From positions 2,232,001-2,296,000 of the forward strand of contig KV748191.1 in the NCBI GenBank assembly GCA_001692895.1: a stretch of DNA of 64,000 nt, read 5' to 3'. The notes under the pieces are model-generated. The model saw nothing but the letters and a program-made list of their open reading frames with translations, was not told where the DNA came from and searched no databases. Of this stretch, positions 585 through 39,440 are shown piece by piece. The DNA comes from Cenococcum geophilum 1.58. Its lineage: Eukaryota > Ascomycota > Dothideomycetes > Gloniales > Gloniaceae. Both the position numbers and the translations under genes were made by a program. The first letter of the stretch is position 1; each line of letters starts with the position of its first letter.

Positions 585-770
585 TGTGACGGCGCTAAGG
601 CACCGCCCCTATGACGTCTACATGTAGCCTAGTTAGGGGCTTGCTTAGAGACTTGGCTTATATATATAGACCTATTCTTTCCTTAACCTTCTTCTGCTCC
701 TTAGCTTAGTATCTTTATAATATAGTATTTTATAAGCTTTGGTTTAGAAGTATTTGTATAAGCTATAATA
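585..770 (+). repeat. 5' LTR of A1
   Basis: 186 bp, starting TGTGACGG and ending in a mutated CCGTAACA (here CTATAATA). It matches the LTRs at 18521-18706 and, reversed, 24539-24724 and 27163-27348. A TATATATATAGACC block about 75 bp in is a candidate promoter element. Confidence 0.92.
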
Positions 771-1555
771 TTATACTAAGCTTACCTACCTGGGGGGGAC
801 TTCATTCGTTTTAAAGCTCCCTCTTTACCTTGCCTGGGAAGGCCTAGATAATCTCCTACCCCTATCCTATATATTCTCGCAAAGAATACACGTTAAACAC
901 CCCCAGCTACGCATTGTTAACGCGTTAAGTCGCTATTATTAAACTAGGAGCTAGTATTTAAGCAGCTAAAAGGTCTTCTATGGTTACAATTAAATGCTAA
1001 CTTTAATAGCTAAGGATATAATGGCTTACAGTCTACTACTACCCTACTAGATTAAGCGCAGCTCTTTAAAACCCCTAACCTTTTTAACTAATACAAAGTT
1101 ATATAAGCTGTAGAGACAACCCCGGTTAAGACTTAGCCTAGGGCTATAAGAAATAAAAAGTAATCCTATTACTAAGCCTAAAACTAATTCTACGGTATTG
1201 GCTAAGATAAGCTAAGATATAACCTACGCTGTGCTATTAGGCGGTAGGTATATATTATCCGCGAAGTCCTCTAGTATATATTAGGTTTGGGCCAATAACT
1301 AAAATAAGCTAACTTATAACCCAGGCCGCTATATAGGCGGTAGGTGCGTAGGTATCGCAAGTCCTCTAGAATAAATCCTACCCATTATCCTCTGGCTACT
1401 ACGCTGCGATAACTACCCTAATTAATACTAAGCTGTATAAAGAGAGACGAAATTAATTAGGAAGAACCTAATGCTTATACTATACTGCTACCCTAAACCC
1501 TAATCCTAATAAGTTACCGCGCTAATACGCCCACAAACCACCACTAAACATGCGG
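771..1555 (+). other. A1 5' internal region with a duplicated block of about 100 bp
   Basis: Non-coding internal sequence conserved with A2 (reverse complement of about 26500-27162). It holds two copies of a block of about 100 bp around ATTAGGCGGTAGGT, near 1236 and 1336. The same pair is present in A2 near 26630 and 26740, so the duplication predates both copies. Short open stretches exist in A2, but no retroelement protein motif is visible. No convincing tRNA primer-binding site was found next to the LTR. Confidence 0.7.
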
Positions 1556-4440
1556 ATCGTTGGTACCCCCCAACGAAAATTTTAACCCGAGTTTATAATT
1601 AACAAGCCGATTAATTAACCCAAAACTTTAATTTAGAGCCGTATTGTATAGAGCTTAATTAACATATACTAGTAGGTATGGATTTATTTCGTAAATCCTA
1701 TACCTCCGTCGTGCTTTATAGTAGGGGATAAGCTTTAGGCAGAGCCTTGTGTAGAGCTTTAATAGAGCCTTATGTAGAGCTTTGGTAGAGCCTTATGCGG
1801 ATCTTTATGCGGGTCTTTATGCAGAGCCTTACGCAGAGCTATATGCAGCTATTTATTCTGGCGATTAATTGCAGAGATATTTGTAGGGACGACTGTATAG
1901 GCAATTATATAGATATTTAATTAATTATTTGTACGGGCGTTCATATAGGCAATTAATTAATTAATTAATTATATAGACGTTTATAGAGCTGTGCGTAAAG
2001 CCGTGTATAGAGCCATTTATAGAGCCGTTTATAGAGACGTTCATACGGGCGTTTAGTTGATTAATTGATTAATCGTATAGGCGTTTATATAGGCAATTGA
2101 TCGATTAATCGACTAATTATATAGGCGTTCGTACGGGCGATTGTGCAGACGTTTGTAGAGCCGTTTATAGAGCCGTTTATATAGACAATTATAGAGCCTT
2201 CCTAGTATATCAGTGCTGCATATTAGTAGAGCTTTAGAGCTCCGTATTAAGCTTTAAGTAGAGTTTTAAGTAGTGCTTTAAGCTCAAGGGGGAGACCCCC
2301 TTGGACCCCCCCCCTACGCACTACGTGCTCCATTTACTGCGTAGGCAGAGCTCTTGCAGAGGCTTTAGTAGAGCGTTTAGTAGAGCTTTTGCAGAGCTTT
2401 ATATGGAGGTTCGTGTAGAGCTTTTGTAGAGCTTTTGCAGAGCTCTATATAGAGCTTCGGTAGAGCTTCGTGCAGAGCTTCGGTAGAGCTTCGTGTAGAG
2501 CTTTGGTAGAGCTTCGTGTAGACCTTCGGTAGACCTTTATATAGACCTTCGGTAGACCTTTGTGCAGAGTCTTGTGCAGAGCCACATGCAGGCGTTCGCA
2601 CGGGCGATTAACTGCAGAGACGTTTGTAGAGACGATTGTATAGGCAATTGCATGGACGTTTGATTGATCGGTTATATGGGCGTTTGATTGATCGATTGTA
2701 TGGGCGTTTAATTGATTGGTTGATTGTATGGGCGTTCGTATAGGCGATTGTGCAGACGTTCGTGTAGACGATTATAGAGCCTTCCTAGTATATCAGTGCT
2801 GCGTGTTAGTAGAGCTTTAGAGCTCCGTATTAAGCTTTAAGTCAAGCTTCGAGTAGAGCTTTGAGTAGAGTTTTAAGCTTAAGGGGGAGACCCCCTTGGA
2901 CCCCCCCCTGCGCACTATGTGCTCCATTTACTACGTGGGCAGAGCTCTTATAGAGGCTTTAGTAGAGCGTTTGGTAGAGCTTTTGCAGAGCTTTGTGTAG
3001 AGCTTCGTGTAGAGCTTCTATCGAGCTATATATAGGCGTGCAGACGTTCATACGGGCGATTAATCGTAGAGACGTTTATAGAGACGATTATATAGGCAAT
3101 TGTATAGACGTTTAATTGATCGTTCGTATAGGCGTTCGTACGGGCGTTCGTACGGGCGATTATGTAGACGTTTATAGAGCCGTTCGTAGAGCCGTTCGTA
3201 GAGTCAATCGTACGGCGATTAATCGTATGGACGTTCGTACGGCCAATTTTAGAACCTTCCTAGTATATTAGTACTGCGTGTTAGCAGAGCTTTAGAGCTC
3301 CGTATTAAGCTTTAAGTAGAGCTCCGAGTAGAACTTTAAGCTTAAGGGGGAGACCCCCTTGGACCCCCCTGCGCACTGCGTGCTCCATTTACTGCGTGGG
3401 CAGAGCTCTTGCAGAGGCTTTGGTAGAGGCTTTAGTAGAGCTTTTAGTAGAGCTTTTGCAGAGCTTCGTACGGAGGTTTGTGTAGAGCTTTTGTAGAGCT
3501 TCGTACGGAGGTTCATGCAGAGCTTTTGTAGAGCTTTAGTAGAGCTCCATGCAGAGCTTTAATAGAGCCTTATGTAGAGCTTTGATAGAGCTTGTATTTA
3601 GGCTTGTTTTTGAAGGCCTTATAAACGACTTTGTATATAGCTTTGAGCAGAGCTTTGCATAGGCGTTCGTGCAGGCGTTCGTGTAGACGTTCGTGTAGGC
3701 GTTCGTACAGACGTTCGTACGAACGATTGTATAGGCGATTGTAGACGTTCGTAGAGACGTTTATAGATACTCGTAGAGACGTTTATAGACACTCGTAGAG
3801 ACGTTTATACGGGCGTCTGATCGATTGATCNTATNGACGTTTGATTGATCGNTCGTATGGGTGTTCGTACGGGCGATCGTGTAGANGTTTGTAGAGCCGT
3901 TTGTAGAGCCGTTTGTACGGACGATTGTACAGNCAATTGTAGAGCCGTCGTAGAGGTGTTTGTAGAGACGTTCGTCGAGACGATTGTGAGACTTCCTAGT
4001 ATATTAGTGCTGCGTGTTAGTAGAGCTTTGGAGCTCCGTATAGGGCTTCGAGTAAAGCTTCGAGCAGAGCTTCGAGCAGAGCTTCAAGGGGGAGATCCCC
4101 TTAGACCCCCCTGCGCACTGCGATGCTCCATTTACTACGTGGCCAGTACACTGAGTGGGCAGAGGTGCTGCAAAGCCTTTGGTAGAGCTTTTGGTAGAGC
4201 TTTTGCAGAGCTTCGTACGGAGCTTCGTGCAGAGCTTTTGCAGGGCTTTGGTAGAGCTCGATGCAGAGCTTTTGCAGAGCTTTAGTTAAACTCAATGTTT
4301 TGAAGTTCGTCACGTGTATTTTGCAGATAGATACCGCCCGCACTTTTTTTCTAACCAATTAGAAGCCGGCTCTCTAACCAATCAGAAGCTGGCTTGGCGG
4401 GACTTTGAATTCCAGGACCCCCCAACCCGAATATATAGAC
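1556..4440. repeat. Tandem array region unique to A1 (12-bp units in longer repeats)
   Basis: About 2.9 kb absent from A2. Most of 1740-4300 is made of degenerate 12-bp units of the type GTAGAGCTTCGT or GCAGAGCTTTGG, mixed with runs of units like GTATAGGCGTTC. A longer block, marked by CCTAGTATATCAGTGCTGC followed by a GGGGGAGACCCCCTTGGAC segment, recurs near 2190, 2783, 3259 and 3992. These are higher-order repeats of variable spacing. Open frames here on both strands (for example 2377-2601 and 3845-4285) are repeat translations, not genes. Both borders carry CCCCCCAAC (about 1567 and 4418), which hints at an insertion, but I could not define a TSD. Ambiguous bases lie at 3832-3933. Confidence 0.85.
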
Positions 4441-5503
4441 CACTCGTACCTCGGGTCAATAAGACACTGTGCTAATACGCCTATAGTCCCACTAACCAAA
4501 CAATCGCGCTAATACGCCTGCGATTAATTAACTAACGATAGCGCTAATATACCTACTATCTACTACCTAACGCTTATATTATACTACTACCCCAAATAAA
4601 TAAGGACTATGCTGCTACGCCTACAGTATAACCGAATGATAGCGCTGATATGCCTGCTATTACCTAACGCTTATACCGTACTGCTACCCTAAACAGACAA
4701 CGATTGTGCTAATATGCCTATAATCGTGATTACTGTTGCGCTAATATGCCTACGACCTATCGACCGACTAATAGACGAGCTCTATGTTTAACTACTATCG
4801 TTACCTAACGCTTATACCGTACTGCTACCTAAATTAATAAGCTCCGCGCTAATACGCCTATGGAACTATAACCTATTAATAAGACCTTACGCTAATATGC
4901 CTACGAGCCTAAACCTATTACTAGCACTATACTGCTATTATAATAGACCTTTGCTGCTTTACCTATAGCACTATTACCAAATTCTACTACCCTACTTATA
5001 GTAATAACTATATATAAGGAGAGCTTTGCTCCTTAGAATATAACCCTATCACTAGTACTATATTACTACTAAATAGATAAGAACTTATGCCAATATATAT
5101 GCGAGTAACTCCCTAACCCTTCTACCCTTATTAAACCTTTACGTTAACTTTTTTTAAGAGGGGGATTAGGGGGGCTTTTTTTATAGCTTAGGGCGCGCTA
5201 TAATAAAAGGGGGGATAGTAGAGCTAGGAGGTACTAAAGTTTTAAAGGAGGAATAACGACCAACGGAGGGCTCCTAGCGATATACCTCTTGCAGTAACAG
5301 GAGCTGTAGGACGGCTACCTGCCCTACGTCAACTGGGTATAGCGATATACCCCTTATAGGAGCTATAGGACGGCTGCCTACCCTATATTAACTAGGTATA
5401 GTAATATACCCCTATAATAGTAGGAGCTATAGGACTGCTATAAGTCCTACATTAACTAGCATCGCGATTAAGCGCTAGATGCTAGATTTTTTTTTTCTCT
5501 TTC
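4441..5503 (+). repeat. A1 3' internal region: short interspersed motifs and conserved tail
   Basis: From about 4460 to 5090, motifs such as CGCTAATACGCCT and ATACCGTACTGCTACC alternate. These are the reverse complements of the arrays in A2 (25200-26560), in more mutated form. From 5100 to 5503 the tail has three imperfect direct repeats of a block around AGGAGCTATAGGACGGCT, also present in A2 (about 24830-25010). The tail is cut at 5503 by element B and resumes at 18460. Confidence 0.8.
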
Positions 5504-5667
5504 TATTAGGAATATAGGCAAGTTGCCGTTACGTATCGCCGCGGCACTAGCGTAGCGAGGAGCCTTAAGCTCCTCGCCCTTCCTTAAATAGGAAGAATAT
5601 ATATAATAAATAATTATTATACTATCTACAAACTGTAGCTATGTGATATTACCTTATGTAACTAATA
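5504..5667 (+). repeat. 5' LTR of B
   Basis: 164 bp, equal in length to the 3' LTR. It starts TATTAGGAATATAGG (from TGTTGGGAATATAGG) and ends AACTAATA (from AACCAACA); the differences are transitions. Just downstream, TATACTATAGAGCAG (about 5692) is a possible degenerate primer-binding site of the copia type, but this is weak. Confidence 0.9.
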
Positions 5668-24724: not shown

Positions 24725-25200
24725 TCACCCCCCCCCCTTCTAAAAAAAGCCTGCCCTTAGGCTTTATCCCCTTATAGAAAAGAAAGAGAAAGAAAAAAAA
24801 ATCTAGCATCTGGCGCTTAATCGCGATACCGGTTAACGTAGGACTTATAGCAGTCCTATAGCTCCTACTACTATAGGGGTATATTACTATACCTAGTTAA
24901 CGTAGGGTAGGCAGCCGTCCTATAGCTCCTATAAGGGGTATATTGCTATACCCAGTTAACGTAGGGCAGGTAGCCGTCCTGCAGCTCCTGCTGCTGCGAG
25001 AGGTATATCGCTAGGAGCCCTCCGTTAGTCGTCGTTCCTCCTCTAAAACTCCAGTACCTCCTAGCCCTACTATCCCCCCTTTTGTTATGGCGCGCCCCAA
25101 GCTATAAAAAAAAGCCCCCCTAGTCCCCCTCTTAAAAAAGTTAACGTAAAGGTTTAATAAGGGTGGGAGGGTTAGGGAGTTACTCGCATGCATATCGGCA
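24725..25200 (-). other. A2 3' internal tail
   Basis: Matches A1 5100-5503 plus 18460-18520. Three direct repeats around AGCCGTCCTATAGCTCCT or its variants lie at 24850-24995. The minus-strand open frame at 25193-25011 falls in this conserved non-coding tail and shows no family motif. Confidence 0.75.
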
Positions 25201-26560
25201 CGAGTTCTTGTCTATTTAGTAGCAGTATAGTGCTAGCAATGGGGTCGTATTCTAGAGAGCAAAGCTCTACCTAGTCGTGTTTGGGCCGCAGGCGTATTAG
25301 CGCGGTAACTTGTCGGGATTATAGCAGTATGGTGCTAGTAATAGGCCGTATTTTAGGGAGTAAAGCTCTTCCTTATATACAGTTATTACTGTAGGCAGAG
25401 CAGTAGAAATCGGTTATAGTGCTGCAGGTAGAGTAGTAATGGTTAAATTAGGATCCGCTACAGGCAGAGCAGCAAGGGTTTGTTTATTTAGCTGCAGGCG
25501 GGGCAGCATATATTAGTTGTAGTACTGCAGGCAGAGCAGCAAGGGTCTATTGTAATAGCAGGCGTATCGGCGCTATTGTTATCTAGTTCATCCTAATCAA
25601 CTTCAATCATCGCCGCACTAGTATCTTAGTCTCAGCCGAGGTCGTTCCTCGCAGTGTGCGTAGCTTAGTCTTAGTCGAAAAGGGTTATCCTTCCGTAGGC
25701 GTATCGGCACGGTGTCTTGTCTTATGGGTCGTAGGCGTATTAGCACGACAGTAATCGGGACCGCAGGCGTATCGGCATGAGGTCTTGTCGGTTCGGGTAG
25801 CAGTACGGTGCAAGCGTTGGGTGACGATAGTGGTCGAACGCAGAGCTCGTCTATCGGTCGGTCGATGGGTCGCAGGCATATCGGCGCGATCGTTCGGTCG
25901 GTGGATCGTAGGCATAACGGCACGATCGGTTGGTCGGTTTGCATTCGAAGCACGTTCGGGCCGCATTCGAATCGCAGGCGTATCGCAGGCGTATCGGCGC
26001 GATGGTAATTAAGATCGTAGGCATATCAGCACGATCGTTGTCTGTTTGGGGTAGCAGTACGGTGCAAGCGGCAGGGTCGTATAAGGGGCAAAGGTCCTCC
26101 TTATATACAGTTGTTACTGCAAGCAGGGCAGTAGAAGTCGGTTATAGTGCTACAGGCAAAGCAGCAAGGGTCGGTCGGCTACAGTGAAGTAGCAAAGGTA
26201 TTGGTTTGCTGCAGGTAGAGCAGCAAGGGTCTATTGCGATAGCAGGTGTATCGGCGCTATCGTTATCTAGTTCTAGCAGTACGGTGCCAGCGACGGGTTC
26301 GGGCGCAGGTGTATTAATACGGCGCTTGTCGGTCAGGTAGTAGTACGGTGCTAGCGATAGGTAGTGATAGTAGGTCGAACGTATAGCTCGTCTATCGGTT
26401 GGTCAATAGATCGCAGGCGTATAGGCGCGACGGTTGTCTGGTTTGATCGCAGGCATATCGGCGCAATTGTACGGTCGGTTTGGGTTGGGGTAGCAGTACG
26501 GTGCAAGCGTCAGGTCCTTCCTAATCGATTTCGTCTCTCCTTGTACAGCTCAGTATTAAT
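25200..26560. repeat. A2 array of alternating short GC-rich motifs
   Basis: About 1.4 kb built from three motif types in irregular order: GCAGGCGTATCGGCGCGAT, GTAGCAGTACGGTGCAAGCG and CTGCAGGCAGAGCAGCAAGG. Several overlapping open frames on both strands (25618-26582) are by-products of these repeats, with Arg-, Thr- and Asp-rich low-complexity translations; none looks like a gene. The A1 equivalent (4460-5090) holds the same motifs with CA to TA changes. Confidence 0.88.
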
Positions 26561-27162
26561 TAGGGTGGTTATCGCAGCGTAGTAGCTAGAGGATAACGGG
26601 TAGGATTTGTTTTAGAGGACTTCGCGGACAATATGCACCTACCGCCTAATGGCACAGCGCGGGTTATAAGTTAGCTTGTCTTGGCCGTCGGCCCGAACCT
26701 GATGCATACTAAAGGACTTCGTGGACAATATATACCTACCGCCTAATAGCACGGCGCGGGTTATATCTCGGCTTGTCTTGGCTAACACTGCGGGATTAGT
26801 GCTAGGCTTAGTAACAGGATTACTATGTTATTCTCCGCAGTACTAGGGTAAGTCTCAACCGAGGTCGTCTCTAAAGCTTATACAACTCCGTATCAGTCAA
26901 AAAGGTTAGGGGGGTGAGATATTATTGCCTTCTTAGGCAGTTGTCCTTATCTACAGGAGACTTTTTAGCTGCTTGAATACCGGCTCCCAGTATTAATGAT
27001 AGCGACTCGACGCGTCGATAACGCGCAGCTAGGAGTGTTTAACGCGTGTCCTCTTAGAACACGCGGAATGGGGGTAGGAGATTATCCAGGCCTTCCCAGG
27101 CGAGGTAAAGAGGGAGCTTTAAAACGAATAAAGTCCCCCCTGGGTGGGTAAGCTTAGTATAA
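26561..27162 (-). other. A2 5' internal region
   Basis: Conserved with A1 771-1555, including the duplicated block around ATTAGGCGGTAGGT (near 26630 and 26740 as reverse complements). No coding motif identified. Confidence 0.75.
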
Positions 27163-27348
27163 TATTACGGCTTGTATAAATGCCTCTAAACCAAAGCTTG
27201 TAGAATGCTGTATTACGAAGATACTAAGCTAAGGAGCAGAAGGAGGTCGAGGAAAGAATAGGTCTATATACACAAGCTAAGTCTCCAAGTGAGCCCCTAA
27301 CTAGGCTGCATGTAGACGTCGCAGGGGCGGTGCCCTAGCGCCGTCATA
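27163..27348 (-). repeat. 5' LTR of A2
   Basis: 186 bp, pairs with 24539-24724. Ends CCGTCATA directly before the TSD. Confidence 0.93.
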
Positions 27349-29299: not shown

Positions 29300-30371
29300 T
29301 AAATAACGGTGGTTCGCACTCGCGCGCAACCGCCAGAACCACGCCTAGCAATAGCCCTCTATAATAAAGACGGGCGAATACTATACTATAAAGCGGAAAT
29401 ACCTTTATTAAGAAGGCATCTAATAAAATATAAAGCCTACTAGACGCGTCTAGTACCTAGAATTACGGGGGAGTAACTATTAGCCATAATAATCTAATAT
29501 AGCTAGTAGAATAGCTCCGCTAGTCTAGCGAACTTTAGGTACCCCTTTAGTAAACCCTTAATTAAATCCTCTAACGGCTAAGCAAAATTAAAAATAAATA
29601 AAATCCCCCCTTACCAGCAAACCGCACCTAGGCCGCCGTAGCTGCGCTTCTACAGTATAGGGAACTTACCCCCCTTAAGATAACAACTAGGTATATAATT
29701 ATAATATAACCAAATACAGAAAAAGCAGAGGGGCTTAGGGGATAATTAGAAATAGAAGTCCTTATAGAAATCCGCAAAGAGGTTTATAATACTATTATAG
29801 TCCAATACCTTAGAAGCGGAGATATTAGAGTTACCCTAAAGGACTAATAGGCAAAGGAACAAGCCGTAAGGGTAGGGGATAGGCTAGGAGAATGTATTAG
29901 CATAAAAGTACTCCGTAAGGATTACCTAGTTAAAGTCCTAGTGGTCCCTATAAGCCTTAGGGTAGAAAAGGGACGCTAGGTAGATAACATAGCAATTATA
30001 TAAGAGATAGTAAGACAAACGGAATGCCTTATACTAGGACTTGAGATCACCCAAATCTAATAGCTTTAATAGGAAAATACAAACTAAGCAAATAATAAGA
30101 ACAATAAGAGGATATAAGGGTCGCTAGAGACTTACTAGGGAGACGCCGGACGAATATATAGCTCCCTTATTATTAGCATATATACACTAGGAATGCAAAA
30201 ACTCCTTATCTAAAAAGGAATAATTATAAACGGCCTTATATACAATATAAGGCTCTATAACCACAGACTATGCCTAGAATAATACTATTACTATATATAA
30301 TAGGGACATACCTAATCCATATACGCAGCATAGGTATGCTACGGCCACTACGCAGGCCCCCACAATATCAT
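29300..30371 (+). pseudogene. LINE ORF1 (gag-like), 5' part (element F)
   Basis: RNA-binding ORF1 of a Tad-like LINE. The translation shows a conserved block around LEITQI and GRIYSSLIISIYTLGMQKL. It then shows zinc-knuckle spacing near 30260-30357: CLExYYYYI, GHT, SIYAA, CYGHYAGPHN, i.e. CCHC fingers in which several Cys codons (TGC/TGT) have become TAC/TAT (Tyr), a G-to-A change. Element K interrupts the frame in the second finger. The start codon is uncertain; 29150-29300 looks like 5' leader. Such proteins coat the LINE RNA and act as chaperones during insertion. Confidence 0.8.
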
Positions 30372-30389
30372 CAGGAAATTTTTTTTTAG
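30372..30389 (+). repeat. Left terminal inverted repeat of K
   Basis: 18 bp, CAGGAAATTTTTTTTTAG. It matches the right end with one C/T difference in CA context. Confidence 0.85.
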
Positions 30390-30439
30390 GCACGTTGTTG
30401 CAAGCGAAAATCGGGTCTGCAAAACCTGCGTAAGTCGCG

Positions 30440-30640
30440 ATTTGCGGCAATTCGCAGCAATTTGCTACAAACACGCAGCTACTTATAAGTAGCCTATGCA
30501 AATTGCTACAAATACGCAGCTACTTATAAGTAGCCTATGCGAATTGCTACAAATTACCACAAATTGCTACAAATACGCAGCTACTTATAAGTAGCCTGTG
30601 CGAATTGCTGCAAATTACCACAAATTGCTAAAATCGCGAC
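30440..30640. repeat. K subterminal repeats (GCAATTTGC type)
   Basis: Three or more copies of a unit containing AATTGCTACAAATACGCAG and CTACTTATAAGTAGCC. The latter contains CTACTTATAAGTAG, a 14-bp perfect palindrome. Related motifs lie at the right end (38690-38795). Such subterminal arrays are common transposase-binding regions; that role is inferred. Confidence 0.8.
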
Positions 30641-30644
30641 TTAA

Positions 30645-31080
30645 GCCAGCTCTACACGAAGCTCCGCACGAAGCTCCGCACGAAGCTCTACACGAAGCTC
30701 TACACGAGGTTCTGCACGAAGTTCTGCACGAAGCTCTATACGAAGCTCTGCGTACAGAGGCTCTGCACGAAGCTCTGCACGAGGCTCTGCACGAAGCTCT
30801 GCGTACAGAGGCTCTGCACGAAGCTCTACACGAAGCTCTACACGAAGTCCTACACGAAGCTCTACACGAAGCTCTGCACGAAGCTCTACACAAAGCTCTA
30901 CTAAGACTCTGCACGAAGCTCTGCACGAAGCTCTACACGAAGCTCTACATGAAGCTCTACACGAAACTCTGCGCAAAGCTCTATACAAAGCTCTATACAA
31001 AGCTCTACGTACAGAGGCTCTGCACGAGGCTCTACGCGAAGCTCTGCGTACGGAGGCTCTACACGAAGCTCCGCATGACA
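30645..31080. repeat. K tandem array of 12-bp units
   Basis: About 35 copies of GAAGCTCTGCAC and close variants (GAAGCTCTACAC). Because 12 is a multiple of three, all frames are open over long stretches and give Ala/Leu/His/Glu or Arg/Ala/Ser/Cys repeats (30598-31128 plus strand, 30615-31083 minus strand). These are not credible genes. The same unit occurs, reversed, in the A1 array (1740-4300). Confidence 0.9.
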
Positions 31081-31194
31081 CACATTACTTCGGGTCCCCG
31101 CTATATTCCCGATAGCCTCTACACATAGGTAGCCACCTTATTTTTTACCCTTCCTTCCTTACATCCTCCCTACCTAGAGAGGCACCAGAACTGC

Positions 31195-31690
31195 AGCTAG
31201 CAGACGACCGTCGCCAGAACCAGATAACCGTCACCAGAACCAGACGACTGTCCCCAGAGCCAGACGACCGTCGCCAGAGCCAGACGACTGTCATCAGAGC
31301 CAGACGACCGTCGCCAGAGCCAGACGACCGTCGTCAGAGCTAGACGACCGTCGCCAGAGCTAGACGACCGTCGTCGGAGCTAGACAACCGTCGTCAGAGC
31401 TAGACGACCGTCGTCATCCAGACAACCGTCACCAGAGCTAGACGATCGTCGCAAGAGCCAGACGACCGTCGCCAGAGCTAGACGATCGTCGCCAGAGCCA
31501 GACGACTGTCGTCAGAGCTAGACGACCGTCGCCAGAGCTAGACGACCGTCGCCAGAGCTAGACGACCGTCGCCAGAGCCAGACGACCGTTGTCAGAGCTA
31601 GACGATCGTCGCCAGAGCCAGACGACCGTCGCTAGAGCTAGACGATCGTCGCCAGAGCCAGACGACCGTCGCTAGAGCTAGACGACCGCC
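31195..31690. repeat. K tandem array of 20-bp units with an inner inverted repeat
   Basis: About 25 regular copies of a 20-bp unit, AGACGACCGTCGCCAGAGCC. Each holds GACG-AC-CGTC, a 4-bp inverted repeat around two bases. The phase is strict over nearly 500 bp, with one shortened unit near 31415. Confidence 0.92.
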
Positions 31691-32137
31691 AACCGTTCGA
31701 ACGACCCAGCCAGCAAACACTAAACGATTCGATCGGTCGAATCAAACCAGAGCATTATTATTAGTCTATTACCGAATTAAATCAAATTAAGCCCTCCTAT
31801 GGAGGCACCCCAAACAACTACCGTTTAGAGGTAGTATAGATAGATAGGTACAGACGGTAGGCATAGACAAGTAGGCATAGACAGTAGGCATAGATAGGTA
31901 AGTACAGACAGTAGGTATAGACAGGTAGGTACAGACAGTAGGCATAGATAGGTAGGTATAGGTAGGTGGGTATAAACAGACAGACAAATAGATAGATAGG
32001 CAGGTAGGCAGGCAGGTAGGTAGGCAAGTAGGCAGGCAGGTAGGCACTAGGCCAATTAACAATTTAGAGGCTTTAAGTATTTTATATAGTTATAATATAA
32101 ATATATTTAAAAGTATATTATAGCAATCTATAGGAAA
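31691..32137. repeat. K array of TAGGCATAGACAG units and GTAG/GCAG microsatellite
   Basis: From 31835 to 31975, degenerate units of about 35 bp made of GGTACAGACAGTAGGCATAG; from 31975 to 32045, a tetranucleotide run of GTAG/GCAG. The open minus-strand frames here (32062-31787) give Tyr/Leu/Pro/Thr/Cys repeats and are not genes. 31691-31834 and 32046-32137 are AT-rich sequence without recognised features. Confidence 0.85.
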
Positions 32138-32285
32138 CGTGCAAAATATATAAAACGTACAAAACGTGCAAAACGTATAAAACGTGTAAAACGTATAAAA
32201 CGTATAAAACGTACGAAACGTATAAAACGTACAAAACGTGCAAAACGTATAAAACGTATAAAATATACGAAATATGCGAAATATA
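32138..32285. repeat. K tandem array of 10-bp units
   Basis: About 14 units alternating AAACGTATAA and AAACGTGCAA. The antisense frames (32320-32090 and 32384-32118) give Tyr/Thr/Phe or Tyr/Val/Leu repeats and are repeat artefacts. Confidence 0.9.
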
Positions 32286-33200
32286 AGGGCTACGTATAGG
32301 CTTCGCGCGGATTGCCGCAAAAAATATAGAGTCTGAAGGTTGGAGAGTGTAGCCGAAAGCTCCGGGAGTGTTTAAATACGCCACGTCGCAAAATCTTACA
32401 CTTAATAAACTTTAGCCCCGTGCGCGTATACTTAATGAGCTTTTAATATAAAATTCTTTAAAATTATCGCGATTAATATATTAAAGCTATATATTATTAT
32501 ATAATATTGCAACCATACCCTATCTTTGGTGTATTTAAGATTGTGTAAATCTTAGTATTAAAAATGGCTAATAATATGTAAGCATCCCGAAGTGCGCAAA
32601 GATATATCTAGGATAGATTAATAATGTATCTAGGATATAATCTAGATACCCTTACGCACCTGCCTATCTCGGGTAGTTCTTCTATACTACTGCTAATAGA
32701 AAAAATTTAGCCTTTAATTAAAGACTTGGAACAATTACGGGAGGACTTCTTTTATAAAGGGTAATGGGTGTAAGAGGAATGTATATGTGTAAATATTAAA
32801 GATGGTAATTAGGATATATCTGGCTTATATTGGGAGTACCACTAAGATATTTAATCCCAAATGCCTATGCTATAATGATCTGCCAATGCCTCTTCTTTAA
32901 TAATAGTAGTAAGTAGAATTATATAACGTGAGCTATATATAATATATAAACTAATTATCTCTATAATATAGCTAGGCTTAATATTAATTATATAAACTGG
33001 ATCGCTTATAGTAGAAAGACTTATATTTAGTTAAGAGATATTAGAATATCCTGTGTCCTCTAAGCACGGGATTGGATATATTATAGATTTGTCTAGCCTA
33101 TAGCTAAATAATAAGAATATTATAAAGATGTACGAAAATATAAGACACTATATTCTAGATAGATCCTATATATAACTTAGTTCTAATATAGATAGATGTA
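32286..33200. other. K region between left arrays and transposase
   Basis: Contains one copy of the block TATAGGCTTCGCGCGGATT (32287-32305), shared with the right end of K (two copies, 38640-38700). AT-rich sequence follows, with no assignable coding block. The true start of the transposase gene may lie in here. Confidence 0.55.
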
Positions 33201-36200
33201 ATACTTATGCATATTAAAGAATAAAATGAGTATAATATGCCCTCTTCTTGGCCTCTAAAAGTGTTTTAGAAGACAGATACCCTATTTAGGCGTGTTTTGT
33301 TACGAATATTTAGACCCTTAACTATAAAACTTTTATCACGAGCAAATTACAGTAGAGGACTGGGAAAGAATACGTAAATTATAAGAAAAAGTATAATATA
33401 TCTATGATATTATGCTACTATATCTAAGTTATAATATAGACGTCGCGAACTCTTATATATTTCCTTAGCGATTTAATAGAATTAAATTAAGATAATATTA
33501 AACGAAGAGACATAAACACGTAAGATATTTATTTATATTATCTATTTTTATTAACATATATATAGGCTTTATAATAGTATTTGTTATATATTTTAGNANT
33601 ANATTGCCTATATAGAGNAGAGTGCTAGTTNTAAGCNATATCTTTATATTNTAAAGTACACNGTTAGTNTCTAATAGATNCTAAATATATTACTACTATA
33701 ACTAAGCTATAACTAGTTACTTATAGATAGACCTGTGGTAAGTATATATTATACTAAGGGAAGTTAAATATAAAACTATAAAAAATACTACTAAAAGTCT
33801 CTTTCTTTAGTTTTAAGATACTTATTAAAATATTTAAGAGATTTACTTAACTAAGGCTATTAGGGTACCCTAAAAACCTATGCAGCGGTAGAGTATAGAA
33901 AGAAAAGATTAGATAATTACGGTAAGTTATTATAATATGTATATAACTATAATATAACTATAATATAACACTAATATATTTAGGTTATAACCACGCCTAA
34001 GGGCCTAGAAAATGGGTACTAGCCCTATATAACATAGAGTTCAATTATATATGGCCAGATAATATTAAGGATTGCCCTTATATTATTTTAACTTCTTACA
34101 GCAAATATACGCATCCTCTAGCGCCTCCGTTAAAGGTTCCAATACAGCTTATTAAAGAACTTTAACAATAAATCTAGCGATAGTTGGGGCTAGGGCTTAC
34201 TCTAAGTATGTTATATCTAAGCTATATTAATGCTCTATTCTTACTTTATTAGGCTCTTTTATATATAGCCCTTTAATAAAAGAGTTTTGCAAAAAATATA
34301 ATATCACTAGCCTTCTAAGCCTTTATTAAAGCCTAGCAAATCTTAATAAGATTTAATATATAATTAAAAAGTAATAGCTTTTATTATTTCTACAANGTTA
34401 AGATATATAAGGGGTAATATTTAAAAAGCATCTGTATTATAAAACTGGTCCTGGATATATATAAGATATATTCCACGAAAATGGTAAGCTAATAATTATA
34501 TGCTTTTAAAAAGGCTAGGTAGAAATACTATCAACGTTAAAAACGTTTAAAATTAATATGTCGTTTAAATGAGTTGGTATAGCTGGGCTAAATAAGGTTA
34601 TAATTGCTATAAATGTCCCTAGAATTAATAAAGGTATTATATAACCCAGTTATATTACGGTTATATCTTTATTCTAATAAGGCTATAGTTATTATACTAA
34701 TAAGAGTTTTTGTAAACCAAGCCATAGGCCAATTAGCAGAGATATATTAACAACTTTTCTATACTATATTCCGCTTATATAAGAATTGCGGCTATCTAAC
34801 TTATTAGAGTTATATCCATAAACGTGGATTTTATGCAGCTCTTATGGATATAGATAGGGCGTAGGCAAAAGGTATTTTATAATGCGTATGTGTTAAAGAT
34901 ATTACTAAAATATATTAGGGCTTGGCCTTTACCTAGTAGATATTAACCCCTTGTAGACCTGGCAGGGCTATATAAAGTCTGCAATTATATATTACTAAAT
35001 CCACATTCTTCACGGTATTTATTAGGTTATTAGAGCCGGAAATATAGGCTAAGATAGTATTAGGCAACATATGGCTTTGATTATGGAGGCTATAAGCCAC
35101 AAGCAATACTATGAAATTTTAGACGCGATTAAAGGTATAGAGATATTATATCCCTAATTAATCTATACTATATCTACATTCTAACATTCATGGTTATAGA
35201 AAAGTATAGTAATAACTATAAAATTATAAACTAGTGTCGATATAAGCGATATATGTGTATTATATCTGGAATAAATCCATATTATAGTAAAATGGATAGT
35301 AATATATTCTCTACAATTATAAAGAATATAAACGCCGTTAAATGCTTCCATTTTTGAGCGAATAATCTTGGGCGTTGATTAAGCCTTTTAGCTGCTATTT
35401 TAATGTTAGTATATCTTATATATCCGTAATATAGTATTATAATAACGATTGTAGTGGACAAAGAATTAATATTTTTAATTTTAAAGTATGGAAGGCGTAT
35501 TATTAGTATGGGATTTCATATATATCGCGAACTATATCTATTGCCGAAAGAATGGCTCTAGTAGAGAAGCGTAAATATATAGATTTATTATAGCTCTAAT
35601 GTGGATATATTGCTAATATAATCTGCTATAGTTCTACAAGTTTTAAAAGAGCTAGAAAAATTAAGAAAACAGGCCCGTACTGGCAAAGGAAAAGCTAATG
35701 CTATATCTATAAGTATTAAAGAGGATAAAGATTTTAATTTTAATAATGTTATATTAGATATATTATCTTCTGGAACTAGTATACGCCCACGGTCGCAATT
35801 ATAAAGTTCGCGAGGCGTACAATTAAAATCTCGCTTATAATCTCTTACCTCTATTTACTCCGGTATATTATATTCTAAATCTTACTAAATTCTATAAAGC
35901 TAATATTTTTTAGTATCCTCTATTACAACATTAAATAATAGGTAGGTTTCGCTCTCTCCTAGGCCTATTTTACCGTTAGGTAGAATTATTTAGATATATC
36001 CTTAATATATCTAGCTTATAAGCTAATTATATCTAGGACATAAGAGTAGCTTATAGTCCTTACTTTATACAACTATTACTTAATAAGCTTAATTCTTACA
36101 ATAGTTAACGCTACAGTAATCCCAATTAAATATTCATAAGTAAAAAGCCCGGGTTTTATATATAGAAGCTGAAGCAAAAGCAATTAAACTATAAAATTGG

Positions 36201-36275
36201 AAGATGGAATTGGAGCTTAGAAAATTAAAATAAGAACTTAGTTAATATAAATTTTTATATTTATAAGTATAAAGG
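33200..36275 (+). pseudogene. Mutator-like (MULE-type) transposase gene of K
   Basis: A plus-strand, intron-containing gene broken by RIP. In order: an N-terminal region with ITVEDWERIRKL and IYDIMLLYLSYNIDVANSYI (about 33350-33460); CPYIILTSYSKYTHPLAPP (34069-34125), a Cys plus HxH-type zinc-binding ending of the WRKY-GCM1/FLYWCH kind found ahead of fungal MULE catalytic domains; HENGKLIIICF (34473 on); FKINMSFK (34546-34569), where the family has Asp before MSFK and G-to-A change gives Asn; INVPRINKGII; VFVNQAIGQLAEIYQQLFYT; and GFYAALMDIDRA(Q)AKG (34829-34876), containing the second acidic site. Later blocks are SIAERMALVEKRKYIDLL (about 35540), a Lys/Glu-rich segment (LKELEKLRKQARTGKGKANA) and a C-terminal coiled-coil-like AEAKAIKL(Q)NWKMELELRK (36172-36230). 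A clear intron runs from GTAAGT at 33931 to a TTTAG near 33992. N bases at 33597-33680 and 34396. The third acidic residue was not located. Confidence 0.75.
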
Positions 36276-36289
36276 GCAGAGGTTATATT

Positions 36290-38450
36290 AAGGTAATTAC
36301 CTAGATAAAGTAATATTATAATGTCTGAGAGAAAGCCTAACCCAAATTCTCTACGCTATGCCTATGCTCCGCGTAATGTTCCATAGCCTATATATAATGC
36401 TTTATAGTGTCTATAATATAACTAGGATATAACCAGCATATATCTAAGATGTATAAACGCCTTAACCTATTTAACCCACACGGTGTAGTCCTCCTTAGCA
36501 TTAAACGACTCCCCATTATTAAAGTCATCTATAACCTCCGGTAGTATTATATTAGGTAAAACGAAGTTCTATTTATAATTAGATCATAGATATATTAGTA
36601 ATATAATTAAAAACTATAAGTATACCTTGTTAAACTAGATATACGTACCCTAATCAGATAAGCATGCTATTTACGTTAGATCTAAGATATAATAGAAATA
36701 TAACTAGCAAACTTACTTTTGCCACTAGTTTTATATAAAGAACATTTCTGATTTTTAGGCTTACTAATAACCTTAAATATCGCGACGCGATTAGGCTATA
36801 TTAAAGTTAGATTATAGTTATATAGTAATTATAACTGCCTAAACTTACCTTGCCCTTAAAGGTTAATGGAATTCTAGAACGGAATATAATGCGCATCTAC
36901 TTAACTGGCTCCTCTATATAATCCGGTTAGATCTATAATATAATAAGATTATAAATAATAATATACCTAGATCTGCTGAAGTTGCTTTACGTTTTCTATG
37001 ACCTTTAGCCGTTAAGGGTGCATTTTTAGCTAGGGGGGCTAAAATATATTAGCAATATATCCTAGATAGAAGAATATTAGTTTAAACTATTATAATATAT
37101 TCCAGCCTTTCTCACTGCTTTACCAATAGGGCATATAACCTGCAGTTCCTTCTTCGTATAAATAGCTCTATAAAGTGTCTTTTAAGCCGCTAAGATAAGT
37201 TAGATCTAGGATATAATATAGATATATAGATAAACATACTATCTAAATTATCTAATTCCAGTTCTTTTCGACCTCTAGGCTTTATACTCCTAATTATATA
37301 GCCTCCACCTTTCTTTATTTTAAGGTTAGAAGGAGGTTATAATGTGGATATATCTAGGATCTTACTGGAAAATGCGACTTAATATGCTTAATTAATCCTC
37401 CACGACTATTTGCGAATTTTTTTTCCTAAGCGCAAATAGTGTGCTCGGCATTTGGATCCTATTATAGTTAGATCTAGGATATAATAAAGATATATAGCAC
37501 TTATAACTTACAGTCTTCCTAATAGCATAATCCCATCTATAGAAAATCTCCTTTAGCAGAATATAGACGAGGAAATATTTGCCGCGGGGCTATATTTAGG
37601 TTATATCTTGGATATAAGCTAGATATATACTAGATATTACCTTAATATAAAAGAACGGAATCTACCCTAGGCGCTTGTTAAGTCTAAGGTACTATGCCTT
37701 GGTGTATTAAGCGGGGGCACCAGAAATACGCCTCTTTATAGTATTTGGCTAAAGAGCAGTATCACGAGTGCTAGAACCCTCGCCCTTACTACTATCCGAG
37801 TCTGGATTAGAATATGGCCTGGAAGCTGCTGCCCTATTCGCCGGAGTGCTATATATAGCTATTATAGTGGCGTCCGGATCTTGCATAGAGTCGCTAGGGC
37901 TACTAAGGACTTCGTTGATAATCTATTAAGGTTAGATTATAGATATAATATAGTTTTATCTAAAATATAACTTATATCTTTTGCGACCTCTATTCTAGTA
38001 AAAGTATTTACCTTCCTATTTTGTAGAAAATTCTCGGTCTATATCCTAATTAGATCCTTTTTATAACCACCAGAAGTCACTTTACCTTATTGCGAAATTG
38101 CGTATTTAGACTATTAAGTGGTGTCTATTCCATATTAGATTATAGATATAACCTAAATATATACCTGCGCTGCTTACATAGGAGTTATTGCAGTTGTTCT
38201 CTGGAGGCTGAAAGGGATTCGGCGGCAACTAATATGGTTAGGTTAGATTATAATAATAATGGGGATAGAATATTAATAAATACCTCTCCTACTCTAGATT
38301 GCTGGTTCTTTAGGCTCTATGGCCACATTAGATCCTTAATAAAACCTTAATATAACCTTAACATAACCTCCTAAAACTTACCTCATCCATATTATTACCG
38401 AGCTCTTTCGAAATCGTATTAGATGGTAGGAAGTATTTAATTAAAGCTTG
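36290..38450 (-). pseudogene. Second gene of K: intron-dense, zinc-finger-like, function unknown
   Basis: Reading the minus strand from about 38450, coding blocks of 27-150 nt alternate with at least 14 introns of about 40-90 nt. Each intron has a GTAAG/GTAT-type donor, a CTAAC or CTAAT branch site and an AG acceptor. The best block is 37918-37630 (Ser/Asp-rich, with NRAAASRPYSNPDSDSSKGE). Then come PRGKYFLVYILLKEIFYRWD and TICA, one RIP stop, EKKFANSRGGLIKHIKSHFP (a finger-like C...H...H pattern). Later blocks include FVLPNIILPEVIDDFNNGES with FNAKEDYTVWVK (about 36580-36460) and AMEHYAEHRHSVENLG (about 36395-36330). Stops in frame are TAG or TAA, which fits Gln/Trp codons. It converges on the transposase. 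I do not recognise the family; an accessory transposition protein is the simplest guess. Confidence 0.6.
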
Positions 38451-38800
38451 TAAACGGCTATAATGACGTTATAATTAAAATATAATTGCGTTATCGACTC
38501 TAAACATAATGCAATAAGAATTTAATTGTGTACTAAGTGAAGCTGTGTCGGAGTTAAAATATCAACACTAGCTGAGGTTTTAGTGCCTTGGCGGGCACTA
38601 ACGGAGCTTTCGGCAATACTGGCCGAGCTATATACTCAAAAATATAGGCTTCGCGTAGGTTGCTGTAAACTACTATAAAAAATATAGGCTTCGCGCGGGT
38701 TACTATAAACCGCCGTAAACCGCATAGGACTATATACGACCACCGTAACCGTATAGTTTGCAGCAAATTGCCGCAAATTACTGTAAACCGCAACAACAAG
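38451..38800. other. K right subterminal region
   Basis: Holds two direct copies of a block of about 46 bp around AAAATATAGGCTTCGCG (38639-38700), plus GCAGCAAATTGCCGCAAATT and related motifs (38700-38795), mirroring the left end. The minus-strand open frame at 38799-38554 is made of these repeats and is not supported as a gene. Confidence 0.75.
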
Positions 38801-38818
38801 CTAAAAAAAAATTTCCTA
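38801..38818 (-). repeat. Right terminal inverted repeat of K
   Basis: 18 bp, complement of the left repeat with the outer CA changed to TA. Confidence 0.85.
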
Positions 38819-39440
38819 ATAATAAGACACTACTTAAATTAAGACTAAATAAAATATATAAACTGCCACTAAAGTATATATAAGGCGTAGGAGAGAGAAA
38901 ACTGCATTAAATATAGGAGACGGAAGGTAAGGGCTTAACAGCTACGGGAATAATTGCATATAAGGTTATATAAATGGAAATAATAAGCAATAAGCTAAGG
39001 GGGCGCAGGTGCCCTTCTAGCGTTTCCTACCTTTAATACTAGGGGGCTAGGCCAGCTAACCTAAGCCTTAATGGGCCAGAAGCGACGCCGCGCGATATTA
39101 CTAGACCGTATAGGGATATAAGGGTCATAAGGGACATAAGGGAGAGGACACCCTATAGGAAGACCCTTATAAACAGCTATAGCAAGCTTAAGACTAGGAC
39201 AATTAAGAATTAGACTTAACGCGGCAAATATAACATTTACAGCTAACTCTTAAAGGGCGTATAGCTAACTAGTAAGAATAAGGGAAGAACTAAAAACAAT
39301 AACAGATTTAGATATAGAAGCGCTAGTAGGAATATAAGATACGGGAATAGAAAGCTCTATATAAAATAAGTAGTAACTAGGGTGTAGATATAAGAGATAG
39401 AAGTTCTAAATATCCTAGAGAAAGTGGAAATAGAAGAAGC
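38819..39440 (+). pseudogene. LINE ORF1 C-terminal part (element F)
   Basis: Resumes ORF1 after K. A finger-like block INCH...SIYKA.ERENCIKY (38866-38926) follows, as in Tad-type ORF1 proteins, where a further CX2C/H finger lies after the CCHC pair. The rest is basic, polar sequence without clear domains. The boundary with ORF2 cannot be fixed. Confidence 0.7.

Follow-up and report, generated by a model that had tools for sequence, protein, structure and literature searches.

In a 64,000-nucleotide stretch of the genome of Cenococcum geophilum 1.58 (contig KV748191.1, positions 2,232,001 to 2,296,000; C16:2232001-2296000 in our searches, and hereafter the window, to which all coordinates refer), an earlier note made from the letters alone had described an 8.4-kb element, here called K (30372 to 38818), as one Mutator-like element (MULE) with two convergent genes and an array-rich left end. 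Based on comparison with its copies, we propose that K is almost certainly a nested pair, in which a Mutator-like element sits inside an array-rich transposon bounded by terminal inverted repeats (TIRs). The outer transposon supplies the arrays and the 18-bp TIR, and the two genes are those of the inner one inserted there. The single 8.4-kb element is thereby abandoned, as the arrays and the genes prove to be separate nested insertions, an outcome which the note itself had named as speaking against it; with it goes the array-rich left end as a MULE architecture or the mark of a distinct family, since the arrays are part of the outer element. The distinction spares repeat libraries a chimeric "array-rich MULE family". 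The host is an ectomycorrhizal ascomycete with a 178-Mb genome consisting to 81% of repeats (PMC5023957); we searched 177.19 Mb in 162 contigs for copies.

Two nested transposons

The left end of K (30372-30500) has at least about 40 good copies in the genome. The right end splits: 38638-38818 is found 2-3.5 kb from K-type left ends, and 38553-38637 matches other loci; the gene regions 36300-37300 and 34700-35800 are present at many of these. We aligned the best 20 matches to the left end of K, the window excepted, which together with the window give 21 outer copies. In most of the 20 fetched copies the left arm up to 32329 runs straight into 38638, and a joined-flank query was gap-free across the insertion junction in 14 of them, each with a single AAAAATATA, the 9-bp sequence duplicated around the insert in the window; the remaining six (L042, L047, L048, L050-L052) gave no match at the junction stretch. 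From the gap-free junction with its single AAAAATATA it follows that K is one element inserted in another. Gene regions of the inner element also occur at further loci without the outer element. The parts of the pair are:

30369..38821, plus strand: outer TIR element with the arrays, split by the inner one (TIR and flanks compared in 21 copies)
30367-30368 and 38822-38823: 2-bp duplication AT in the flanks of the outer element
30369..32328, plus strand: outer left arm, including one copy of the inner target duplication (continuous with 38647 onward in 14/20 copies)
38647..38821, plus strand: outer right arm and right TIR (comparison of copies)
32329..38637, no strand assigned: inner Mutator-like element, 6309 bp (ends at 11 loci; gene regions at loci without the outer element)
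32320..32328: inner 9-bp target duplication AAAAATATA, left copy
38638..38646: AAAAATATA again, to the right of the inner element
32329..32370, plus strand: imperfect inner TIR at the left end, GAGTCTGAAGG..., with GCCGAAAGCTCCG as core
38596..38637, minus strand: right imperfect TIR of the inner element

It could be argued that K is a single autonomous MULE of 8.4 kb whose internal-deletion derivatives are the short array elements, as one outer TIR pair encloses everything and both ends are common to the short copies. Yet 14 copies would then each need a deletion running exactly from inner TIR to inner TIR plus one copy of the 9-bp repeat, the inner element is present at other loci with its own ends and 9-bp duplications, and the outer duplication measures 2 bp, not 8-11; we consider this extremely improbable. 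The 14-copy junction and the inner ends at other loci rule out K both as one element and as the parent of the short copies. For the nested pair we propose that a TIR transposon of about 2.1 kb, rich in arrays and apparently non-autonomous, would have inserted first, duplicating 2 bp, that the 6.3-kb Mutator-like element would then have inserted near its right end, duplicating 9 bp, and that repeat-induced point mutation (RIP) probably mutated the inner family heavily afterwards.

The outer array-rich element and its affinities

The outer TIR, CATCAGGAAATTTTTTTTT, bounds all 21 copies, those outside the window being 1.3 to 2.9 kb long. The 18-bp TIR originally quoted for K does match (17/18 bp), but it is part of this outer TIR, and the copies move the element bounds to 30369 and 38821. 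A 33-bp pattern of the TIR, allowing up to 3 mismatches, matches 238 + 242 = 480 ends in the genome, versus 0 for a reversed control. A 2-bp duplication flanks 19 of the 21 copies (10 TA, 3 AT, 3 TT, 1 AG, 1 GT and 1 GA), against a mean of 6.4 and a maximum of 13 two-bp matches with shuffled flanks; a 3-bp match occurs in none of the 21, and a single 4-bp match (TATA, in L034) is included in the 2-bp cases. Five tandem arrays are present as reported, although two of the quoted periods, 35 and 10 bp, were off:

30457..30634: array 1, period 41/61
30648..31075: array 2, period 12, 34.8 units
31201..31688: array 3, period 20, 24.5 units
31829..32046: array 4, periods 14/27, then 4/12
32135..32263: array 5, periods 9/18/27

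The 12-bp array recurs in 21/21 copies with 11.9 to 93.2 units and the 20-bp array in 19/21, and most copies examined keep the same array order with varying unit numbers. Subterminal motif copies were likewise confirmed at both ends: the left arm has six and the right arm a single one (up to 3 substitutions). Elsewhere in the window, the array-rich stretch 1731-4283 contains 12-bp units (AGAGCTTTTGTAG type) and resembles the outer 12-bp array in opposite orientation (76% over ~270 bp), and no outer-type TIR matched there.

Long open reading frames of the outer element run only across arrays, or occur in one copy without any transposase-like domain; a six-frame scan of L034 returned three sub-cut-off matches, located in the repeat array, and no transposase-like sequence. 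No autonomous partner came to light among the end pairs listed (about 100 places per pattern search, so that longer outer-type elements may be missed), and the two longest listed pairs, C40 (6.8 kb) and C81 (10.7 kb), read in part (4001 and 5501 bases), gave no Pfam match at E <= 0.1. A transposase supplied in trans would mobilise the family, which poses the question of which transposase yields mixed-sequence 2-bp duplications in this fungus.

Because its duplication is 2 bp instead of 8-11, the outer element is not a MULE. TA is the commonest duplicated dinucleotide (10/19), as might be taken to indicate a non-autonomous Tc1/mariner-type element inserting at TA. Nevertheless, 9/19 duplications are AT, TT, AG, GT or GA, and TT/TT, GT/GT and AT/AT are not derivable from TA via RIP transitions; a strict Tc1/mariner affiliation is accordingly unlikely. 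Duplications of 2-4 bp and subterminal repeats characterise CACTA elements, and a non-autonomous element of this type (CMC), with a short mixed duplication, subterminal repeats and internal minisatellites, is possible and may tentatively be entertained here. The 2-bp duplications of several dinucleotides lie within the CACTA range, and the subterminal motif is repeated in the outer element as well; against this, its termini read CATCAGG instead of CACTA, and the two long end pairs with these TIRs, partly read, yielded no CMC transposase. Among the array-bearing or CACTA-like fungal elements of the literature, as judged from listings, none was recognised as the outer family.

The inner Mutator-like element and its two genes

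The ends of the inner element were compared at 11 loci, namely the window and 10 picked where both ends had matched. Its TIR is imperfect and about 42 bp long (in the window, a core of 13 bp is perfect) and is recognisable at all 11; since the base preceding AGTCTRAAGG is G in each of them, we read the element as 32329 to 38637. An exact 9-bp duplication flanks six loci (the window, C4, C105, C2, C55 and C120), a 9-bp duplication with 1-2 transitions two (C5, C6), and one of 8 bp a further one (C14). Mutator-like elements are described with target duplications of 8-11 bp (PMC6446971), the very length which the note had suggested would support Mutator: the inner element with 9 bp falls within it and the outer with 2 bp does not, and the MULE assignment holds for the gene-bearing inner element and lapses for the rest. 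It rests on this duplication and on a transposase related to MULE-labelled proteins and, by the predicted structure of a relative, to ISCth4. A related family keeps two short second-gene blocks (36519-36605 adjoining 37043-37300) on C5, C2, C12, C68, C14, C67, C70, C40, C7 and C24, and on some of these the left subterminal region is matched too. The members are apparently deleted relatives of the inner element. Lone N bases are scattered within the inner element, at window positions 33597-33681 and 34397. Its coding parts are:

34348..35402, plus strand: transposase gene (itself about 33980-35900), the stretch best recognised, from window matches to relatives
34550-34570, plus strand: first acidic motif, KINMSFK
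34844-34870, plus strand: second acidic motif, MDIDRA
36470..38319, minus strand: second gene, exon-like pieces recurring at transposase loci
35800..36000: point at which two inner types pass from shared to diverged sequence

The transposase was compared as a read-through built from the consensus of degraded copies, with pieces joined over predicted introns. It aligns to a set of relatives (hhalign E 3e-78), some of them labelled MULE transposase; the label, from a source other than the Pfam scan, is on 5/20 homologues, and full-length relatives measure 745-941 aa. Related transposase genes occur in Pseudogymnoascus, Aspergillus and Zopfia. The best match for the predicted structure of one relative (P0005) was the transposase of ISCth4 (VIA-align), with a GCM-like domain in front; ISCth4 is a member of the IS256 family, and kinship and model together place the transposase with the MURA/IS256-related DDE kind. 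In light of this model, the transposase would combine a GCM-like zinc DNA-binding part with an RNase H-like core of DDE type, akin to ISCth4, and would cut and paste the inner element via its own TIRs. This gives a domain reading for a transposase group which the Pfam copy used does not recognise. The Mutator-like transposase with the motifs quoted in the note is thus upheld on the plus strand. The window copy is degraded; 5-10 stops interrupt the transposase block at each of 15 scored loci, with the RIP mutation pattern.

Several observations weigh against these assignments. A 2-bp flank match is lacking in 2/21 outer copies, and a duplication is absent at 2/11 inner loci (C47, C76). The ISCth4 match came only in the VIA-align second look, with a root-mean-square deviation of 5.0; Foldseek alone returned nothing for the relative's model at E <= 0.001, its best being Hermes at 7.6e-3. 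Neither the read-through nor any scanned relative reached the cut-off of a Pfam family, the curated MULE model included; the Pfam scans yielded weak, unrelated matches with a best E of 0.024. Finally, the consensus origin and the joined pieces leave single residues of the read-through uncertain. A sequence search of the PDB with P0001 returned none at E <= 1.

The opposite-strand second gene is borne out by pieces running from 38319 to 36470, convergent with the transposase gene within the inner element. The two genes are found in the same order at at least 16 loci besides the window by our tally, some with later insertions, and a few loci hold just one of the two gene parts. We assign the second gene to the inner element because the two co-occur between the same ends; its proposed membership in K is in that sense retained, though it travels with the transposase and is not one with the arrays. 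It is improbable that it is instead a separate insertion or captured sequence. Such an origin would accord with the absence of any relative found, with the different history of the two halves described below and with the loci holding one half only, but the gene lies between the inner TIRs, in the same place, at the 16 or more other loci, and no TIR or duplication border occurs near 35.8-36.0 kb in the alignment, to which the border search was confined. Searched with the degraded second gene, 5034 candidates yielded no relative at E <= 0.01, with MudrB itself outside the comparison, and the gene matches no Pfam family; a codon-position test yielded 6 transversions in 387 sites, few for such a test. 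The second protein might perhaps be an accessory factor like MudrB.

That both genes contain introns, as the note had it, is predicted from splice-like motifs; a scripted splice-site search recovered no open reading frame for either. Near the branch site, the predicted second-gene introns have in common a stretch resembling TTATATC..AGATCTAAC; it appears as TTATATCCTAGATCTAAC and variants (36470-38400, minus strand), through chance, RIP or related introns. Introner-like elements were considered and set aside, the whole introns not being alike, with host introns outside the comparison.

Two types can be told apart among the inner copies, with similar transposase halves and divergent second-gene halves. 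The first was read in nine copies and the window, and the second in five (L024, L027, L029, L031, L032), with L024 as its sole representative beyond 37325. Their group consensuses differ by no transversion among the 2589 sites of 33200-35800 and by 51 among the 2831 sites of 35800-38637, a split with a chance of about 4e-15 at an even rate; single copies of both types do carry a few left-half transversions (L031 5, L024 3, L028 7). The simplest reading is that recombination or module exchange may have occurred where the convergent genes meet. This half-to-half mosaic makes second-gene exchange among two-gene MULEs testable. A broader proposal, that the inner MULE swaps its second gene as a module, with a transposase half identical in both types but for RIP-type changes, and that the outer family is an undescribed fungal transposon lineage with arrays perhaps serving transposition (e.g. 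as transposase-binding platforms), appears rather doubtful to us as a whole.

A RIP pattern is evident in the inner copies, in which C/T-variable columns precede A in 319/576 cases and G/A columns follow T in 298/529. In the outer left arm of the window, C>T/G>A changes relative to the majority of 14 outer copies (six divergent ones excluded) rise from 0/180 columns at the far left through 0/125, 1/140 and 2/88 to 3/56 beside the insert, and in the right arm they number 9/82 and then 6/92. This suggests that RIP aimed at the inserted MULE may have spilled beyond its borders into the outer element; it remains a suggestion, because the insert-free outer copies L049 and L045 show equal right-arm changes.

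Among known systems, Mutyl, a MULE of Yarrowia lipolytica, is described as 7413 bp long with 22-bp TIRs, a 9-bp (9-10) duplication, a transposase and an antisense second gene of unknown function (PMC6446971, PMC5014426). It resembles the inner element in its two genes, the second antisense, its short imperfect TIR and its 9-bp duplication, and is thus a precedent for the antisense second gene; the two differ in length (6309 versus 7413 bp), in TIR (about 42 versus 22 bp) and in the degradation of all scored inner copies. Mutyl reportedly undergoes alternative splicing, going by the title of a paper. In MuDR of maize, a transposase is accompanied by a second convergent gene; by these general traits, rather than by compared sequences, MuDR is like the inner element in that gene and unlike it in its long TIRs and plant host. 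Hop of Fusarium oxysporum is described with a 9-bp duplication, an 836-aa transposase and perfect 99-bp TIRs (PMC5014426). As a fungal MULE with this duplication length and a transposase of about 800 aa it recalls the inner element, whose TIRs of about 42 bp are imperfect. Hop presumably has a single gene, unlike the two-gene inner element. Phantom and Rehavkus are listed as MULE or outgroup elements with minisatellites (PMC6446971), a likeness which is only apparent, as the arrays of K sit in a different element with a 2-bp duplication. Two-gene MULEs with 9-bp duplications are already known (Mutyl), and what is new here are the two inner types and the array-rich outer family; the inner element is a further two-gene fungal MULE, one whose duplication length has been measured.

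Other repeats in the window

Mirrored inverted segments occur in matching order at 587-979/26955-27346, 1072-1499/26482-26912 and 5020-5507/24778-25268, a pattern suggestive of a ~27-kb structure whose long inverted ends are composite (587-5507 and 24778-27346). A 5.1-kb inverted repeat, 43193-48281/53012-58100, is 91% complementary with arms 4.7 kb apart. Two direct repeats of about 90% identity, 22388-24537/39929-42080 and 27349-28468/42077-43196, are adjacent at 39.9-43.2 kb and separated at 24.5-27.3 kb, and are probably one repeat interrupted by an insertion.
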